From positions 1 through 29,486 of the IMG/VR virus record IMGVR_UViG_3300042503_000164: a stretch of DNA of 29,486 nt. One strand, given 5' to 3'. The DNA is from a virus. The notes under the pieces were generated by a model. It was not told the DNA's origin, searched no databases, and saw only the letters and a list, made by a program, of their open reading frames with translations. Below are positions 1,477-21,475 of the stretch, one piece after another (within the stretch, counting starts at the first letter, position 1; the number at the start of each line of letters is the position of its first letter). Position numbers and translations under genes: made by a program.

Positions 1477-2091
1477 CTATAACCAAGTTGCGTATTTCTT
1501 GGTCTTTTGTTTGCGGTCATCTAGGCCGTGGGTTCCGCCATTGATGCGCTTGGTAAGTGCAAGGATAGCAGCGTCGTTGATGCCCTGATCGCAGATGCTC
1601 CACAACTTGTTTGCGTCAAAGAACCACAAGGCACTTTCAAAGCCCAGTTCAGTAGCAACAAGGTCTGGATTGTCCAAAATCTCCTGTTCCCGACCAATGT
1701 ATTTGCCGAATGCGCGATAGTTGTTCTTCCCGGTGAGTTGGAGCGGCCCCCTGCCCCGGTATTTCCACCCATCGCCTGATGCTTCGTCGCCATTACCCAT
1801 GCGGTTAGCATAAACACGGTTGGCAATTTTCTGTGGCTGACGCTCATAGGCACGGGCCAAAGCATCAGTTGGGAAATACTTCCCAAAAATGCCCCTCAAC
1901 CCCTTAGCGCCGTAGTTCAGGTTTTCGCTGAACGCTTTGAAATTGCCCGATTCATGCGCCGTTTGAGCAAAGAAATGTGCAGCCCGATTAGGTGATAGTT
2001 TATAAAAAGCCGCAGCTTTCTTACATGTACCTGGACCGAACGCACCATCTGCATGACACCCACATTTGCTTTGAAGATTAATTAAGCTCAT
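1477..2091 (-). CDS. GH19 chitinase-like endolysin
   Basis: A 204-residue murein hydrolase of glycoside hydrolase family 19, which cleaves the glycan backbone of peptidoglycan at lysis. The first 35 residues (LQSKCGCHADGAFGPGTCKKA) look like a shortened peptidoglycan-binding repeat. The catalytic region has AHESGNF with Glu47 as likely acid and ENLNYG with Glu56 as second carboxylate, then YRGRGPLQLTG, ESALWFF and RINGG-LDDR, all family signatures. No signal or anchor segment is evident, so export should need a holin. The start at 2091 overlaps the previous stop (ATGA) with a GCGGAG site 9 bases before; an earlier in-frame ATG at 2109 is less likely. Confidence 0.93.
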   Translation of the reverse strand: MSLINLQSKCGCHADGAFGPGTCKKAAAFYKLSPNRAAHFFAQTAHESGNFKAFSENLNYGAKGLRGIFGKYFPTDALARAYERQPQKIANRVYANRMGNGDEASGDGWKYRGRGPLQLTGKNNYRAFGKYIGREQEILDNPDLVATELGFESALWFFDANKLWSICDQGINDAAILALTKRINGGTHGLDDRKQKTKKYATWL

Positions 2092-2597
2092 TTGCCAGCA
2101 CTCCGCCAATCAGGGAAATCAAGTTCATCGACTACGCCGTCACCGTTGGCATCGTAACGCAGATCACCGCGATACTTTTCCCAAGGCTCCATTTCGTCAT
2201 CGTCATCATCGATTTCTGGTTCATCAATAAACACAGTCGCGGCTGGATCATCATAACGTGGCGCAGGAGCAACCATGTCAGGTGTAAGCGGCAGCGGGTC
2301 TGGTTGTGGCGCTACAGGGGCCAGAGGCTCTGGTTCTGGGTCATCACGGTCTTCTGGTGGTGGTGGGGCCAATTCGCCCTTCATGCCCATCAGGGTGGCG
2401 TAGGAGCCAGCCACAGCGCCGACAACAGAAGTCATGACGTATGACAGCAAGCCAAATACATCTTTATTGTCAATAATCTCATTCGATATGAACAGCCCGA
2501 CAATCATAGCGCAAGTGATGGCGACAATGACAAACGCCATCGTTTTTGCCGCCAGCAGTAACGCTTTAATTCGCGCCTCTAATAATTTATCATCCAT
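2088..2597 (-). CDS. Two-span membrane protein with EF-hand-like end
   Basis: 169 residues. Two membrane segments lie in the first 75 residues (about 18-39 and 47-70), joined by a short loop (SNEIIDNKDVFG). A long Pro/Asp/Glu-rich tether follows (APPPPEDRDDPEPEP and similar), then an acidic patch (EIDDDDDEMEPWEKY) and a C-terminal DANGDGVVDELDF. That last motif matches a calcium-binding EF-hand or dockerin loop (D-x-N-x-D-G-x-x-D-x-x-D). The two-span front resembles small holin-like proteins in the lysis region of aquatic phages. It overlaps the endolysin start by four bases. It could be a holin with a regulatory tail or an envelope protein; calcium binding is inferred from the motif. Confidence 0.75.
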   Translation of the reverse strand: MDDKLLEARIKALLLAAKTMAFVIVAITCAMIVGLFISNEIIDNKDVFGLLSYVMTSVVGAVAGSYATLMGMKGELAPPPPEDRDDPEPEPLAPVAPQPDPLPLTPDMVAPAPRYDDPAATVFIDEPEIDDDDDEMEPWEKYRGDLRYDANGDGVVDELDFPDWRSAGK

Positions 2598-2600
2598 ATA

Positions 2601-3131
2601 TTAGTCCTTTCCTGCCAGCGGATTTGCCAGCGTCTTTTGAATGCGCTCATTAGTTTGCGCCTCCAACTCTTTGATGCGACGTTGCTGTTCCTGATCTTGC
2701 TGACGCAACTGATCGATCACTGCACGTTGCATGGCCATGTTTTGAGCATCGCTGCTCCTAACGCTACTGGAGACAGCATCAACCGTCTGGCGCGTTCCAC
2801 TGACGCTACTGCTGATGCTGCCCGTCATGTAATTTAAGGCTTCGCTATTGATCTTGGTCAGGCGCTCAACGCTTGTCACGCGCTCATCCAGAACAGAAAT
2901 GCGGCCTTCAATGCCAGACAAGTCTGGCGGAACATATGCCGCCGTCACTTCCTGCATGGTCAGGAATTGCTGATACACTTGGAAGCCAGCCCAGAGGCCA
3001 CCAAGGATTGTCGAGAATGCAGCAAAGATAATTGCAATCTTGCCGCTGCTCAGGCCACCAATGTTGAAGCTAAAACCGCTTTCATCAAAGGATACCTTTG
3101 GCTCTTCTTTTTCATCATTTGTATTGCTCAT
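2601..3131 (-). CDS. Membrane-anchored coiled-coil protein
   Basis: 176 residues: an acidic N-terminus (MSNTNDEKEEPKVSFDES), one membrane segment at about 30-55 (GKIAIIFAAFSTILGGLWAG), then a mostly helical, Ser/Gln/Glu-rich coiled coil ending KELEAQTNERIQKTL. The likely topology is inside-out with the coil in the periplasm, as in inner-membrane spanins such as Rz, but no partner outer-membrane lipoprotein was found. It overlaps the preceding secreted-protein gene by 17 bases. It is one of five envelope-type proteins in a row. Function unknown; spanin is one option. Confidence 0.75.
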   Translation of the reverse strand: MSNTNDEKEEPKVSFDESGFSFNIGGLSSGKIAIIFAAFSTILGGLWAGFQVYQQFLTMQEVTAAYVPPDLSGIEGRISVLDERVTSVERLTKINSEALNYMTGSISSSVSGTRQTVDAVSSSVRSSDAQNMAMQRAVIDQLRQQDQEQQRRIKELEAQTNERIQKTLANPLAGKD

Positions 3132-5166
3132 CTACCATCTCCTGCCATCTGGCATCGTTTGTCTGCATCAATCGATACAACTCAAAGTTTGCGTCTTGCA
3201 GCCTACGTCTGCTATATATATCACGAACTGCATAAAAGTCAGCCCTATCTTGTAAAGACGCTTGGGTGTACGCCGCAAAGCCAGGTACTGTGCCGATCTC
3301 CGATATTGTTTCGCTTTGCCCTTCGGACATTCCGCTTTCGGTCTGCGTAGTGTTTTCGTTGGAAGATGCAGCAGGAGGTGGGCCAAGGCTTAGAACCTCA
3401 ACTGCGTTTGCCATAGATACTGGGCTGGTTACCGATATGGTCGCATCCAATGGCAAAACGCTTTGCGCCGAAGATACACTTGGCCCTTGCACGAACGACT
3501 CGCTAAATGCGCTTTCGAAACGCGCTTGCGCTGAGAAGGTATTTGACGAAGACGTATCCTGTACCTCCTGCATACCACTCTCTTGCTGTTGTGTGCTTTC
3601 TTTAACTTCCGAATTGGCTACAGCCAGTGCGGGGGCTTGATTTAATTCAGGTTGCTCAATCACATCTGCGATGGCTAACGCTGGAGTTTGATTTGCCTCC
3701 ACCCGCTCAGTTACTTCTGACACAGTTACGGCAAGCGAAGGTGCTTGTTCTTGCTCTACGCGCTCTGTTGCGTCTGGACCAATTGAATCTAGTGCAGAGG
3801 ATTGTTCAGACTCTACCCGCTCGGATATGTCTGGAGTGGTCACCGACAGCGTAGCGGGTTGTTCTGACTCCGACTGCTCGACTGCATCTTGGTCGGATGC
3901 GATCAGCACAGGGGATTGTTCTAATTCCAGCCGCTCAACTACGTCTGGTCCGGTTATGTTCAACGCCGGGTTTTGATCTATTTCCAGCCGCTCGGCTGCG
4001 TCTGATTCAATTGCTTCAAACGTATCAACTTGTTCCGACTGCTCGGTTATGTCAGAGACAGTTGCCTCAAGCGCATCGTCTTGGCTTATTTCCGACTGCT
4101 GGGCAGCGTCTAGATCGTCTGCATTGAACGCATCAACTTGGTCAGATTTGTCCACTGCTTCTGGCTCATCAACATCCATTGCAGTTGATTGTTCTGATTC
4201 TGATCTTTCGGTTGCGTCTGTGCCAGTTGCGGCCAGAGCAGCAACCTGATCTGGATCAAGGCGCTCAACCGTTTCGACCTCGCGCACACTAGCCTCCACA
4301 TCCGCCTCCGGCTCGTCAGCGATTGTTGCAACCTCCTCGGTTTCCGCGACTTCCTCCACCTGCTCAACTGCGACGGCTACTTCACTCATCTCCTGCGCTT
4401 GCTCCAGTGCATCTGTGGCTGTATCTTGCACCTCTTCTATTTGCTCTGTCGTAAGCTCCGCGCTCTGCTCAACGGCTTCGGCAATTGCAGCCACAGGGTC
4501 TGGAATGGTTTCAATACTGGCTGGTGGGCAGCTTGGGTCCATAGGTGTCAGATTGCAGTCAACGGTCACGATAGGCGTTGGTGCAACCCATGACAAAATG
4601 CCAGATTGGTTCTGAAGATATTGCGCGTTTCGACCGTAGAAAAGCGGAATGTTGTCTTCAGGGTTTGGGCCTGTGATGCCTGCGGTGAAATCGCGCCAAC
4701 CTGAGAAACCCAGATTACCGTAATTCAGTTGAATCTTACCGTCCGAAAAAAGACCTATTTCGAAGGTGCTACTGTTATTTGTGCCGTACTCGTTCGTGCC
4801 GTACCAGCCAAATAGGATAGAACTATCGTCGCGGCGGTAATATGGGTTGCCAGTATAGCTGATTAAGTCTGACCAGTAGCCGTATATCGTGTTGCGCTGC
4901 GCCCGATCTAGCGGTTCGCCGTTGCAGCACAGGTTAGCGGCGCTCTGGAAAGACACGAATCCGTTGGATGAAACCCATGCGTCGGTGAACGTCTGCCCCC
5001 AATAGTCGAACTCAAAACCAAGGCTGACACGGGCTGTGTTGTCATCGCCTAAATTAAGAGGCGTCATTGTCGTTGGAGTGCCATTGATCTGCGGTGGTAT
5101 TAAGGCAGGCTCATAGACTTGCGCACGAACAGGCGTTGCACAAGTCAGCAGGACAACTACCCGCAA
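3115..5166 (-). CDS. Secreted NIDO-like protein with acidic repeats
   Basis: Large exported protein of unknown role, about 683 residues from TTG 5166. Signal segment LLRVVVLLTCATPVRA with cleavage before QVYEPAL. Next, about residues 40-168, a domain resembling the NIDO (nidogen extracellular) fold: FEFDYWGQTFTDAWVSSNG, YGYWSDL, IGLFSDGKIQLNYGN, FTAGITG. Then a two-cysteine segment (VDCNLTPMDPSC), about 200 residues of imperfect 18-20-residue acidic repeats (DATERVEQEQAPSLAV type), a Ser/Gln-rich stretch, and a basic helical end (RDIYSRRRLQD to MVDEQYK). The start is unclear: no ATG; TTG at 5238 overlaps upstream by 62 bases; ATT at 5181 would give the most typical signal peptide. Possibly an envelope or virion adhesin. 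Confidence 0.85.
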   Translation of the reverse strand: MRVVVLLTCATPVRAQVYEPALIPPQINGTPTTMTPLNLGDDNTARVSLGFEFDYWGQTFTDAWVSSNGFVSFQSAANLCCNGEPLDRAQRNTIYGYWSDLISYTGNPYYRRDDSSILFGWYGTNEYGTNNSSTFEIGLFSDGKIQLNYGNLGFSGWRDFTAGITGPNPEDNIPLFYGRNAQYLQNQSGILSWVAPTPIVTVDCNLTPMDPSCPPASIETIPDPVAAIAEAVEQSAELTTEQIEEVQDTATDALEQAQEMSEVAVAVEQVEEVAETEEVATIADEPEADVEASVREVETVERLDPDQVAALAATGTDATERSESEQSTAMDVDEPEAVDKSDQVDAFNADDLDAAQQSEISQDDALEATVSDITEQSEQVDTFEAIESDAAERLEIDQNPALNITGPDVVERLELEQSPVLIASDQDAVEQSESEQPATLSVTTPDISERVESEQSSALDSIGPDATERVEQEQAPSLAVTVSEVTERVEANQTPALAIADVIEQPELNQAPALAVANSEVKESTQQQESGMQEVQDTSSSNTFSAQARFESAFSESFVQGPSVSSAQSVLPLDATISVTSPVSMANAVEVLSLGPPPAASSNENTTQTESGMSEGQSETISEIGTVPGFAAYTQASLQDRADFYAVRDIYSRRRLQDANFELYRLMQTNDARWQEMVDEQYK
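3604..4221 (-). repeat. Acidic 18-20-aa repeat array in NIDO-like gene
   Basis: About 11-12 imperfect units with the pattern D-x-x-E-R-x-E-x-(E/N)-Q-x-P-A-L-x-V, for example TERVEQEQAPSLAVTVSE followed by VTERVEANQTPALAIA. Units differ in sequence and slightly in length, so the array is old or diversified. It likely forms an extended acidic stalk between the N-terminal domain and the C-terminal helix. Confidence 0.75.
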
Positions 5167-5176
5167 AAGGTATGTC

Positions 5177-6769
5177 TTAATCCTTGACAGGGCGAAGCTC
5201 GACGTTTTCGGTCCACGCGGCGCGAGCTTCCTCGCCAATCAAACCCAAGAATGGGCACGGTGTTCCGGCCATCTCCATTGCCCTGAAGACGCGGAAGTCT
5301 TGGCATAGGAGACTGACGGCGGCGACACGCATACCCATATCGTAAAGGGTCTTAGACAGCTTCATCCGTTCGCAGTTCTGGTCACGCACGGTGCGGCCAG
5401 CCGACAAGCCAATGATCTGGGTCTGCACTGCGCCAGACTGGCCAGTGGTGCATAGGTCTTGGCTGTAGGACATCATGCTTGGCGCGATGGCGCTCGGCGG
5501 TGGCGACTTGATGTTCTGGTCGATGACCTGACGCGATACGTTCTCGCTGTAGCTTTTGCTGTCAGATACGTTGACGTTATTGTTCTGATTGACGTTGTTG
5601 CTGGTCTGGTTGACCGTGCTGTTGCTAGTTTCGTTCGTCGTATTGATGTTGTTATTCGTGTTTTTGCTATCCACCGTGCTATTTTGGTTGACGGTTTGGT
5701 TCACCGTGGATGTGCTGACATCGTTATTGAAATTGCGGTTTGTATTATCAGATGTGCTGTCAGAAGTGTTCTGGTTAATGTTGTTCATTGTGCCAGAGTT
5801 CACGTTGTAGTTCGTGTTGGTGCTGTTATTCGTATTCTGGTTTACGTTCGTAGCGTTTAACGTGTTCTGATTAATATTAGTAACAGTACCAGAGTTGATA
5901 TTCTGATTTACGTTATTGTTCGTATTCACGTTTGTGGCGTTCAGCGTATTCTGGTTAATGTTAGTCATAGTTCCAGAATTGATGTTCTGATTAACATTTG
6001 TGTTCGCGTTTGTGGCGTTCGACGTGTTCTGGATGATCGACGTAACGGTTCCAGAATTAATGTTCTGGTTGACGTTGTTATTGGTATTTACGTTCGTGGA
6101 CGTACTAGTGTTCACGTTTGTGTTGTTAGAACTGGACGTGTTCTGATTGATGTTAGTCATCGTACCAGAATTGATGTTTTGGTTTACGTTCGTGTTGGTG
6201 TTGTTCGATGTGTTTTGATTAATGTTAGTCATCGTACCAGAGTTTATATTCTGGTTGACGTTGTTGTTTGTGTTTACGTTCGTGGAACTTGACGTATTTT
6301 GGTTAATATTAGTCATTGTCCCAGAATTGATATTTGTATTGGTGTTGGTAGAATTTAACGTGTTTTGATTGATATTTGTCATAGTCCCAGAATTAATGTT
6401 CTGGTTGACGTTTGTGCTAGTTGATGTGTTCTGGTTTACGTTCGTACTGGTGTTTACGTTCGTGTTGGTGTTCACATTAGTAGCGTTCGACGTGTTCTGG
6501 TTAATGTTTGTAACCGTTCCAGAATTGATGTTCTGGTTCACGTTATTGTTAGTGTTTACATTTGTGCTGGTTGATGTGCTGGTAGACGTGTTATTATTCT
6601 GGTTGACGTTCGTGTTAGTGGACGTGCTGGTAGACGTATTAGTATTATCTGTCGTGCTGTTGGTTGTCGTGTTATATATGTATTCCGTCGGCGCTGTGGA
6701 TGTGGCCTGTGCCAACACCATCGACGATGACGCAATTAACGAGATAAAACCCAGCACAAATTTTTTCAT
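5177..6769 (-). CDS. Secreted Asn/Thr-rich repeat protein
   Basis: 530 residues with three parts. A standard signal peptide (MKKFVLGFISLIASSSMVLAQ). Residues about 33-418 are almost only N, T, S, Q, V and I, with nine copies of N-I-N-S-G-T-(M/V)-T-N-I-N-Q-N-T spaced by shorter N/T runs; such alternating polar/hydrophobic repeats are typical of beta-helix or amyloid-like folds. Residues about 420-530 form a globular domain with cysteines near 440, 466, 489 and 505 (CTTGQSGAVQ, NCERMKLSKTLYDMGM, SLLCQD, GTPCPF), suggesting two disulphide bonds; I recall similar domains from marine phage proteins. The ATG overlaps the preceding stop (ATGA). Curli-like fibre, adhesin or envelope coat are possible roles. 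Confidence 0.88.
   Translation of the reverse strand: MKKFVLGFISLIASSSMVLAQATSTAPTEYIYNTTTNSTTDNTNTSTSTSTNTNVNQNNNTSTSTSTSTNVNTNNNVNQNINSGTVTNINQNTSNATNVNTNTNVNTSTNVNQNTSTSTNVNQNINSGTMTNINQNTLNSTNTNTNINSGTMTNINQNTSSSTNVNTNNNVNQNINSGTMTNINQNTSNNTNTNVNQNINSGTMTNINQNTSSSNNTNVNTSTSTNVNTNNNVNQNINSGTVTSIIQNTSNATNANTNVNQNINSGTMTNINQNTLNATNVNTNNNVNQNINSGTVTNINQNTLNATNVNQNTNNSTNTNYNVNSGTMNNINQNTSDSTSDNTNRNFNNDVSTSTVNQTVNQNSTVDSKNTNNNINTTNETSNSTVNQTSNNVNQNNNVNVSDSKSYSENVSRQVIDQNIKSPPPSAIAPSMMSYSQDLCTTGQSGAVQTQIIGLSAGRTVRDQNCERMKLSKTLYDMGMRVAAVSLLCQDFRVFRAMEMAGTPCPFLGLIGEEARAAWTENVELRPVKD
5516..6673 (-). repeat. N/T-rich repeat array, nine NINSGT units
   Basis: DNA encoding the polar repeat region. Nine copies of the SGT-M/V-TNINQNT unit lie roughly between 5766 and 6540. 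Protein copies are nearly identical, but the DNA copies differ repeatedly at third codon positions (AAC/AAT, ACG/ACA/ACT), so the array is conserved by selection on protein rather than by recent copying. Confidence 0.85.
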
Positions 6770-6996
6770 GATCTGTCAGCCTTGTTATCCAGCTTGTCTT
6801 CAATTCTGCGAAGGTGCGTCATTACTTCGTCAAATTTCTTGTCGATGGATTGAAATTTCTCATCGCCAAAGCCCAGCCGCGCTTCAAGCAGCGTCAGTTT
6901 GTTGGTCAGATTCACCCAGACAGTTATCAGCGCCCCTATAAAGCTAAGGGCGGTGATGACAAAACCAAGGATGGTAAAGAGTGTGTTAGTATCCAT
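6766..6996 (-). CDS. Small membrane coiled-coil protein, 76 aa
   Basis: The frame is open up to a GTG at 7056, but this would overlap the fibre chaperone gene; ATG 6996 gives MDTNTLFTILGFVITALSFI and is preferred. The product has one N-terminal membrane helix (about 5-28), then an amphipathic coiled coil with regular hydrophobic spacing (LTLLEARLGF, FDEVMTHLRRIEDKL) and a basic end. This layout is common among small phage proteins near lysis and fibre genes (compare the inverse layout of XhlA). No good ribosome binding site precedes 6996, but a 12-codon reading frame with a strong GGAGG site overlaps the start. Function unknown. Confidence 0.7.
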   Translation of the reverse strand: MDTNTLFTILGFVITALSFIGALITVWVNLTNKLTLLEARLGFGDEKFQSIDKKFDEVMTHLRRIEDKLDNKADRS

Positions 6997-7025: not shown

Positions 7026-7505
7026 CTATCCTCCGGCTGATGGCGACGCAGGCCACTCAATGTTGAACGGGTCACTTTGCGTTGTTATATCACGCAATGC
7101 CTGCCGATACGATCCCCAATTTGCAGCTTCCGCGCTTGTCAGTGGCGCATCAGGAAGCTGGGTCCAATCGCAAGCGGTCAGACGGCGATTGCGGTCAAAG
7201 CGGACAGCGCCCCACTCCTGCTCTGTACGGGCGGCAATTTCTTCTTCGTTCATCGGAACAACAATCCGCGTCTGGTAAAATACGCCGTTGTCTTGCGACT
7301 TAACCGGAGCGACTTCTTCCAGCTTCTCAAACACACCGTGTTCTGGTGGCATGGAGAAATCATAAATACCGTATCCGTAGGGCTCAATGTGTTCCGGCAA
7401 AAGCGGGAACGGCAAAGATACGCTTGGGTTGACTTGCTTGAAGTTATCAAGAGCTACTGGGTTGCCTGTTGGCTGACCATTTTCAAGTTGAATAAGAAAC
7501 ATCAT
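7026..7505 (-). CDS. Tail fibre assembly protein (phage_tail_APC-like)
   Basis: 159 residues. The C-terminal third has RNRRLTACDWTQLPDAPLTS, then WGSYRQALRDIT and a WP end. This matches the phage tail assembly chaperone-like family (Phage_tail_APC), whose hallmark is (S/C)DWTQLPDAPL-x-W-x-YRQALRDI. The N-terminal part (residues 1-95) is a beta-rich variable domain. Such proteins are usually encoded right after fibre or adhesin genes and help them fold or attach, which fits here directly downstream of the glycine-rich adhesin. ATG 7505 overlaps the adhesin stop (ATGA); a second ATG at 7502 has slightly better spacing to AGGGA. Confidence 0.85.
   Translation of the reverse strand: MMFLIQLENGQPTGNPVALDNFKQVNPSVSLPFPLLPEHIEPYGYGIYDFSMPPEHGVFEKLEEVAPVKSQDNGVFYQTRIVVPMNEEEIAARTEQEWGAVRFDRNRRLTACDWTQLPDAPLTSAEAANWGSYRQALRDITTQSDPFNIEWPASPSAGG

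Positions 7506-9828: not shown

Positions 9829-9829
<1 letters not shown>
8957..9829 (-). CDS. Glycine-rich tail adhesin, copy A
   Basis: 290 residues, paralogous to the product at 7502-8371. The N-terminal block (QQAYTTAGTFSWVCPADVTS, LGWKNNISVTPGTSYTV) and the C-terminal block (GGAVRIIWGAGRSFPSTNT) match between copies, while the Gly-rich middle has different loops (DTYFWETAG, ASIPTDSFVG, SRTIDYEYGTFYG). Loops between glycine runs are the likely receptor-contacting parts. The start at 9829 overlaps the collagen-fibre stop (TAATG), so the two genes are probably translationally coupled. Family assignment is from composition plus conserved ends. Confidence 0.85.
8960..9025. repeat. Direct repeat, adhesin 3' end, unit 2
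   Basis: Partner of 7505-7570, in the same orientation about 1.45 kb away, with only scattered mismatches over some 60 bases. The 5' regions of the two adhesin genes (about 8230-8340 and 9690-9800) are also clearly similar at the DNA level. Confidence 0.8.
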
Positions 9830-13110
<3,281 letters not shown>

Positions 13111-20674: not shown

Positions 20675-21067
20675 TTATACAGCCGCGCTGGTCAAAGCCC
20701 CTGTTCCTTGAACAGTGATAGTGGATTCTACCATACCATCGAAGCTGCCTGTGATGGTCTTGCCAGTAACAATGGCTTGACCTGTGTAATAAACGTCAGT
20801 GGAAACTGCACCTTCTGGGTAAAAGCGGATAGCCACTTCAGCGCCAGGGATTAATGCGCCTTGGCCCGTGGTGTCTGTTTCGTCCCAGAACACATCAACC
20901 GAACCAGACCAACCTTTCAAAGTAGTCTTAAACGTGCGATAGCTATCGCCCATTGAAGTATCTTCAACAGTATCCGCAGTTTCCTCAACCGAGTACGAAC
21001 GAATTTCAAGCACGTTGTTGGTCGAGCCAACGCGAACTGTGCCTTCTGAACCAGTATGGGTAGCCAT
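20675..21067 (-). CDS. Major tail tube protein, copy 2
   Basis: 130 residues, beta-rich, starting MATHTGSEGTVRVGST. It contains RSYSVEETADTVEDTSMGDS, FKTTLKGWSGSVDVFWDETD, and TGKTITGSFDGMVESTITVQ. The length and pattern fit short tail tube proteins of siphoviruses (phage tail tube fold). It is about three quarters identical to the product of the gene 9 bases upstream, so the two form a tandem duplication. The differences cluster at residues 11-20 and in the segment ALIPGAEVAIRFYPEGAVS. An AAGGAT site precedes the start. Both copies look intact, so both may be in the tail. Confidence 0.88.
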   Translation of the reverse strand: MATHTGSEGTVRVGSTNNVLEIRSYSVEETADTVEDTSMGDSYRTFKTTLKGWSGSVDVFWDETDTTGQGALIPGAEVAIRFYPEGAVSTDVYYTGQAIVTGKTITGSFDGMVESTITVQGTGALTSAAV

Positions 21068-21076
21068 GTCTTATCC

Positions 21077-21475
21077 TTACGCCAGTGTTGCTTCAGTCAA
21101 AGCACCAGTGCCTTGAAGCGTGATTGTCGATTCCACCATGCCGTCAAAGCTGCCCGTGATGGTCTTTCCTGTCACAGTCGCTGTTCCGGTATAATACTTT
21201 TCAGACACGCCAGCCGACGCACCTTCTGGAAATACGCTGATCGTGACCTGAGCACCCACTACAAGAGCAACCTGACCGTTTGTGTCAGTCTCATCCCAGA
21301 ATACGTCAACAGAGCCAGACCAGCCCTTCAGAGTCGTTTTAAAGCTACGATAGCTATCACCCATCGAAGTATCTTCAACAGTGTCAGCGGTTTCTTCCAA
21401 AGAGTAGGAGCGAATCTCTGCGATGGTGTTCGCACCAACTTTAAGCGTTCCCTCTGAACCAGTATGCGTAGCCAT
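21077..21475 (-). CDS. Major tail tube protein, copy 1
   Basis: 132 residues, paralogous to the downstream copy: MATHTGSEGTLKVGANTIAE, RSYSLEETADTVEDTSMGDS, FKTTLKGWSGSVDVFWDETD, then VVGAQVTISVFPEGASAGVS and GSFDGMVESTITLQ. It should polymerise into the tail tube around the tape measure. The ATG overlaps the stop of the 48-residue gene (TAATG). The two copies keep the same strands but differ in a loop region and at the C-terminus (EATLA against SAAV), which suggests divergence rather than recent copying. Which copy dominates in the virion cannot be told from sequence. Confidence 0.88.
   Translation of the reverse strand: MATHTGSEGTLKVGANTIAEIRSYSLEETADTVEDTSMGDSYRSFKTTLKGWSGSVDVFWDETDTNGQVALVVGAQVTISVFPEGASAGVSEKYYTGTATVTGKTITGSFDGMVESTITLQGTGALTEATLA

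Follow-up and report, generated by a model that had tools for sequence, protein, structure and literature searches.

Our data define a cassette of three genes – coding for a protein with a long Asn/Thr-rich tract (the NT protein), a partner with an adhesin-like head, and a coiled-coil protein that ends in an NPL motif (the NPL protein) – which is gained and lost as a unit and which appears, from comparison of sequences, to be mobile and widespread in aquatic phages. The window, by which we mean the whole stretch of DNA analysed, covers the whole of an IMG/VR virus record (29,486 bases) and comprises a structural and lysis module of a tailed phage, carried mostly on the minus strand; the cassette and the genes around it are set out in Table 1. 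As to function, we favour – tentatively, and at a little under an even chance – the reading that the three products form an exported, inner-membrane-tethered, adhesin-like complex. It would alter the infected cell's envelope, most probably at the surface, and the tract would act as a spacer. With a module this widespread, and three proteins that all look export-like, many infected cells would carry virus-made envelope proteins for which our searches found no study.

Table 1. Coordinates of the cassette genes, their parts and the flanking genes in the window
Feature	Position	Strand	Description
GH19-type endolysin	1477..2109	-	Downstream of cassette, outside it; PF00182 and PHROG 181
Two-TM holin-like protein (fam17)	2088..2597	-	Beside cassette, outside it; present in 50/50 endolysin loci
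NPL protein	2601..3131	-	176 aa; N-terminal TM, coiled coil, C-terminal NPL; cassette gene 3
Partner gene	3115..5181	-	Signal peptide, beta-rich head, acidic linker, C-terminal helix; start codon uncertain
Partner, long acidic linker	about 3568-4209	-	Tandem repeats
Partner, head	about 4588-5091	-	Beta-rich, adhesin-like
NT protein gene	5177..6769	-	530 aa; cassette gene 1; PHROG 20531 match
NT conserved C-terminal domain	5180..5503	-	aa 423-530; four invariant cysteines; predicted beta hairpin and four helices
NT N/T/S/Q-rich tract	5504..6703	-	aa 23-422; alternating Asn and nine units of NINSGT type; putative spacer of variable length
NT signal peptide	6710..6769	-	aa 1-20; putative cleavage after VLA, from sequence
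Small TM and coiled-coil protein (fam20)	6766..6996	-	Upstream; occurs with and without cassette

An exchangeable three-gene cassette

Evidence that the three genes behave as one entity came from 50 endolysin loci, namely those with at least 4.5 kb of upstream sequence among 79 newly fetched by means of the window's endolysin. Fifteen of these carry the NT, partner and NPL genes together, and the other 35 carry none of them. In the 35 cassette-free loci the slot is mostly occupied by other genes – a small cysteine-rich lipoprotein in 22 and a two-TM protein in 30 – neither of which is found there in the 15 cassette loci (Fisher 2e-5 for the lipoprotein and 7e-9 for the two-TM protein against the cassette, with relatedness ignored; many of the compared loci are near-duplicates, thinned only for the wider-set length correlations and closest pairs considered below). 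This all-or-none distribution indicates that the three genes are gained and lost together, replacing another envelope module. Across 193 NT loci the lipoprotein motif occurs once, in an antisense frame; an exception is phage MW202675, which has an NT-type domain plus the small lipoprotein.

The slot lipoprotein (positions 5025-5216 of locus L205) bears the motif C[QE]DRYRYDC and matches no PHROG or Pfam family. The neighbouring holin-like gene has an N-terminal half of one type in 12 of the 15 cassette loci and of other types in all 35 cassette-free loci, the C-terminal end being common: a pattern that suggests recombination within the gene.

In the first locus set 66 loci extend to a further gene downstream of the NT gene, and in all 66 the one directly next to it is the partner, a count from which 14 of 81 loci, where the NT gene was not recognised, are omitted. 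In a wider set, with neighbourhoods defined by greedy ORF calls as in all of the compared loci, a partner from one of two families falls within seven genes of the NT gene in 114 of 131 loci. The 17 loci that lack a partner of family 2 or 3 include L082 and others in which it was missed by the ORF caller; another protein of 275-762 aa is present among the next genes in nine of the 17 (L086, L085, L095, L097, L100, L102, L110, L111 and L171) and in none of the rest. The NPL protein was found in 93 of 101 loci of the wider set, and its C-terminal motif marks 125 of 127 family members as against 7 of 2565 other genes. We found no description of the cassette in the open-licence PMC literature, as judged by titles and abstract starts.

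Relatives of the NT domain (query aa 408-530) number at least 582 among the 599 candidate IMG/VR stretches listed. The domain is also present in 11 phage records: six from Pelagibacter phages (HTVC115P, Mosig, HTVC202P, HTVC023P, HTVC033P and Baldr), two from Roseobacter phages (CRP-207 and CRP-810) and three that are environmental. Domain and cassette reach from cultured SAR11 phages, including HTVC023P, and (in part at least) Roseobacter phages to hundreds of environmental contigs. A scan of a collection of bacterial and archaeal genomes returned 25 loci, and because the titles of nearly all of them name a metagenome bin or an uncultured assembly the NT family looks to be phage-borne. Contigs with the domain that are titled Woesearchaeota, Marinimicrobia, Trichodesmium, Bacteroidetes and other bins (L090-L114) are probably phage contigs that were put into the wrong bins. 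In CRP-810 a small lipoprotein ORF (L084, 7561-7821) overlaps the NT-type gene; judged by eye, its cysteines and helices follow a pattern that would fit a duplicate of the C-terminal domain.

Variable tract and constant domain of the NT protein

A sequence-only reading of this DNA had described the NT gene as a phage open reading frame for an exported protein, in which an N/T-rich repeat stands between a signal peptide and a separate four-cysteine domain. The sequence agrees with each of these elements, and the nine NINSGT-type units that were claimed are matched by nine N[IV]NSGT units in our own count, starting at aa 80, 124, 146, 174, 198, 236, 262, 290 and 322; export itself is a prediction. 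Of the 186 NT relatives with a readable start, 176 begin with a hydrophobic segment that resembles a signal peptide, according to a simple hydropathy rule rather than SignalP. The ATG of the gene overlaps the stop codon of the gene upstream (ATGA).

Asn accounts for 35% of the 400-residue tract, Thr for 21.5%, Ser for 12.8% and Gln for 6.2% (75.5% between them), with Val at 7.7% and Ile at 5.5%. The Asn residues alternate: N-N at distance 2 stands at 0.61, where 1000 shuffles give 0.346 (sd 0.032), and at distance 1 at 0.14, while the corresponding medians for 116 relatives are 0.57 and 0.19. The nine units differ mainly at silent sites (pS 0.80, pN 0.064); having diverged silently and barely at all in protein, they point to selection on the tract as protein. 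The repeat is more than the product of chance or DNA slippage. Across the 116 relatives the tract measures 40-495 residues (median 162), and in 17 others the domain starts before residue 70. A tract that ranges from almost nothing to some 500 residues is the variable part of the protein, and the C-terminal domain the constant part.

When 80 relatives are aligned, C440, C466, C489 and C505 of that domain show no variation, and AlphaFold models its beta hairpin and four helices with pLDDT 81-94. For the tract (80 aligned sequences) pLDDT is 32-47 in 10-residue means and no strands are predicted, low pLDDT in low-complexity sequence being no proof of disorder. Structure prediction, a check that the earlier reading had proposed for the repeats, yields no confident fold in the tract: one of the two outcomes that this reading had named as counting against it, the other being a lack of export in the host. 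Searches by sequence and by fold found nothing similar to the NT protein among solved structures, and the viral predicted structures that match its domain are uncharacterised proteins. The PHROG match (E 2.5e-14, profile positions 102-273 of 314) is to a family of unknown function.

The same earlier reading likened the repeats to amyloid and to curli-like or beta-helical fibre proteins; on such a view they would stack, as amyloid or a beta-solenoid, into an extracellular fibre. It also named an ice-binding protein as a candidate, to which nothing in these data points, the tract having no confident model. An N/Q-rich composition behind a signal peptide, together with the alternating N-x-N-x of the window and 116 relatives, would suit such a fibre, and curli genes do occur in pelagiphages, as noted in passages of PMC9599517. 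We nevertheless consider stacking very improbable: the tract is modelled without strands, has no Pfam match, and is nearly missing in some relatives that retain the domain. In the NT protein as a whole no Pfam family was found at E <= 0.1 and no curlin repeats; CsgG (PF03783) was found in 0 of 45 cassette records, the window included, many of which may be fragments, and in 4 of 14 controls. These results give no support to a curli-like fibre. The strand-free model, along with the lack of a matching solved fold, gives none to a beta-helical one, although the N-x-N-x alternation is not accounted for by that model. The earlier interpretation is supported in part, by the sequence elements confirmed above and by an adhesin-like setting: the head of the adjacent product resembles the adhesin RemA.

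A proposed envelope complex and its rivals

The likeness to RemA was found with a profile of 43 partners, which matches the N-terminus of that protein (PDB 8gl6 chain D) with E 1.2e-8. Pfam NIDO matches one of the 43 (E 0.0018) and gives no match to the partner of the window, and the partner of HTVC033P is annotated as carbohydrate-binding. The head differs between phages, as in L031 and HTVC023P, and the acidic linker has no confident predicted structure (AlphaFold, 43 sequences). No Foldseek match with E < 0.001 was found for the partner model, and fold matches that reached only a Z of about 5 were set aside. In the window the partner gene lacks an ATG close to its signal peptide. Candidate starts are a TTG at 5166, a TTG at 5238 that would give a 62-base overlap with the NT gene, and an ATT at 5181 that shares one base with the NT stop and is retained as 'IK' in several relatives.

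A signal-like hydrophobic N-terminus is present in 115 of 124 partners, and 111 of 120 NPL proteins have a single hydrophobic segment near the N-terminus. With such N-termini in all three proteins an envelope location is likely; the adhesin-like head argues for binding, and four invariant cysteines are what would be expected of a periplasmic domain. From these features we infer the export, assembly, place, timing and purpose of the complex as follows. The NT protein and the partner would be exported by Sec, probably late in infection. The TM segment of the NPL protein would anchor it in the inner membrane, its coiled coil extending into the periplasm, where the disulfide-stabilised C-terminal domain of the NT protein and the conserved C-terminal part of the partner would dock. 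The exchangeable head of the partner would then be shown at the tip of its long acidic linker, and the N/T tract would lie alongside as a flexible spacer. The likeliest use would be altered surface binding: either shielding of receptors against superinfection, or contact between cells or between cell and virion. No outer-membrane secretion genes were identified in a search that covered CsgG, so that display at the surface would lack a known route.

The main rival to an envelope complex is help with lysis, in which the NPL protein would act in the manner of an i-spanin while the other two products assist in breaking up the outer membrane or in setting the time of lysis. The topology of the NPL protein – a TM segment followed by a coiled coil, presumed periplasmic – is that of an i-spanin. 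An endolysin, from either of two families, lies within 6 kb in at least 34 of the 75 loci with both flanks, which fits lysis as well as it does an altered envelope; moreover, the cassette slot precedes the holin-like gene and the endolysin, and the module with which the cassette is exchanged consists of a lipoprotein and a two-TM protein. We nonetheless judge a role in lysis to be somewhat unlikely. An Rz/Rz1-like pair (fam30 and fam31; PHROG 739 and 812) coexists with the cassette in 11 loci, and the spanin reading is weakened because of it. Most of the proteins lack an outer-membrane anchor of the o-spanin type: the NT protein of the window has no lipobox, and one is present in only 4 of 186 NT relatives and 12 of 124 partners. 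Related loci manage without the cassette in 35 of 50 cases, and in Mosig and JWAlpha the NT-type gene is distant from the annotated lysis genes. As for the NPL protein, that of the window has no PHROG match at E <= 0.001, and in that of locus L043 the PHROG matches are to the coiled coil only, none being labelled spanin.

A second counterpoint to the envelope complex is the position of the cassette genes in the window, where they come after genes for tail fibres and for a chaperone of tail assembly (7026-7505; PF16778). Swapped partner heads are, in addition, reminiscent of receptor-binding proteins, and the cassette might on these grounds encode part of the virion, namely a whisker or accessory tail fibre whose receptor-binding head can be exchanged. 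This seems to us quite improbable. All three cassette proteins have signal peptides or TM segments, which are unusual for virions assembled in the cytoplasm, and the NT-type gene in Mosig and JWAlpha lies outside the annotated structural region. The JWAlpha relative JJJB_0025 is absent from the bands and table entries given in passages of PMC3915230, a weak point that concerns major gel bands only.

Elsewhere in the window, positions 9829-13110 encode a tail-fibre-like protein of 1093 aa that contains long collagen-like repeats of the form G-x-y; two fibre-like proteins rich in glycine come next. Two adjacent genes (20675-21067 and 21077-21475) are a tandem duplication: their products, of 130 and 132 aa, are clearly alike and both start MATHTGSEGT. 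PADLOC returned no hits, and no NCBIfam model came near a cut-off.

Possibly coupled lengths and comparison with known systems

That the NT tract and the partner linker may be chains lying side by side is a lead that comes from their lengths. The NT gene of L002, 96.4% identical to that of the window where the two align, carries in-frame tract insertions of 138 and 156 bases. The NT tract has 9 repeat units in the window, 12 in L002 and 1-2 in 14 relatives; the partner linker has 9, 10 and 0 respectively, the partner counts depending on the search pattern (one L002 unit was skipped). Within the window group the lengths of tract and linker correlate with rho 0.96 (slope 0.80, n = 12); in the same group the length of the tract rank-correlates with two control families as well (0.65 and 0.78), which points to common descent. 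In the wider sets rho is 0.39 (n = 55), a modest correlation, and 0.24 (n = 27), in effect none. Among the 20 closest differing pairs tract and linker change in the same direction in 12 and in opposite directions in 4. A more specific proposal, which we regard as unlikely, is that the cassette is a portable module in unrelated aquatic phages for a two-chain exported stalk, the lengths of which change in step and set the distance between the adhesin-like head and the inner-membrane anchor.

Several known systems invite comparison. RemA, a cell-surface adhesin of Flavobacterium johnsoniae gliding whose secretion is attributed to the T9SS, has an N-terminal domain that resembles the head of the partner and not the NT protein; the likeness spans only residues 2-180 of its 1436. 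JJJB_0025 of Achromobacter phage JWAlpha resembles the NT protein in having a signal peptide, a low-complexity tract and the same C-terminal domain, cysteines included: its match to the NT domain is a weaker one, and it fits PHROG 20531 over its full length. Its tract, however, is rich in G, N, Q and S rather than in N and T, JWAlpha is an N4-like phage, and the gene is sited elsewhere, with no cassette partner recognised beside it in the annotation.

The curli genes of pelagiphages (type VIII secretion) are, like the cassette, a portable multigene set of marine phages for which a change to the surface or lysis of the infected cell has been proposed – aggregation or anti-superinfection in passages of PMC9599517, and lysis timing for phage Melnitz in passages of PMC9004378. 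Their proteins differ from those of the cassette, and CsgG was found in none of the 45 cassette records. Rz/Rz1 spanins have the i-spanin layout and the lysis neighbourhood in common with the NPL protein, but the latter has no convincing match to a spanin family and the NT protein is mostly not a lipoprotein. If the two-chain stalk were borne out, the infected cell would wear a virus-coded surface appendage of another kind than virion fibres, spanins or curli, through which binding to the cell would be controlled.
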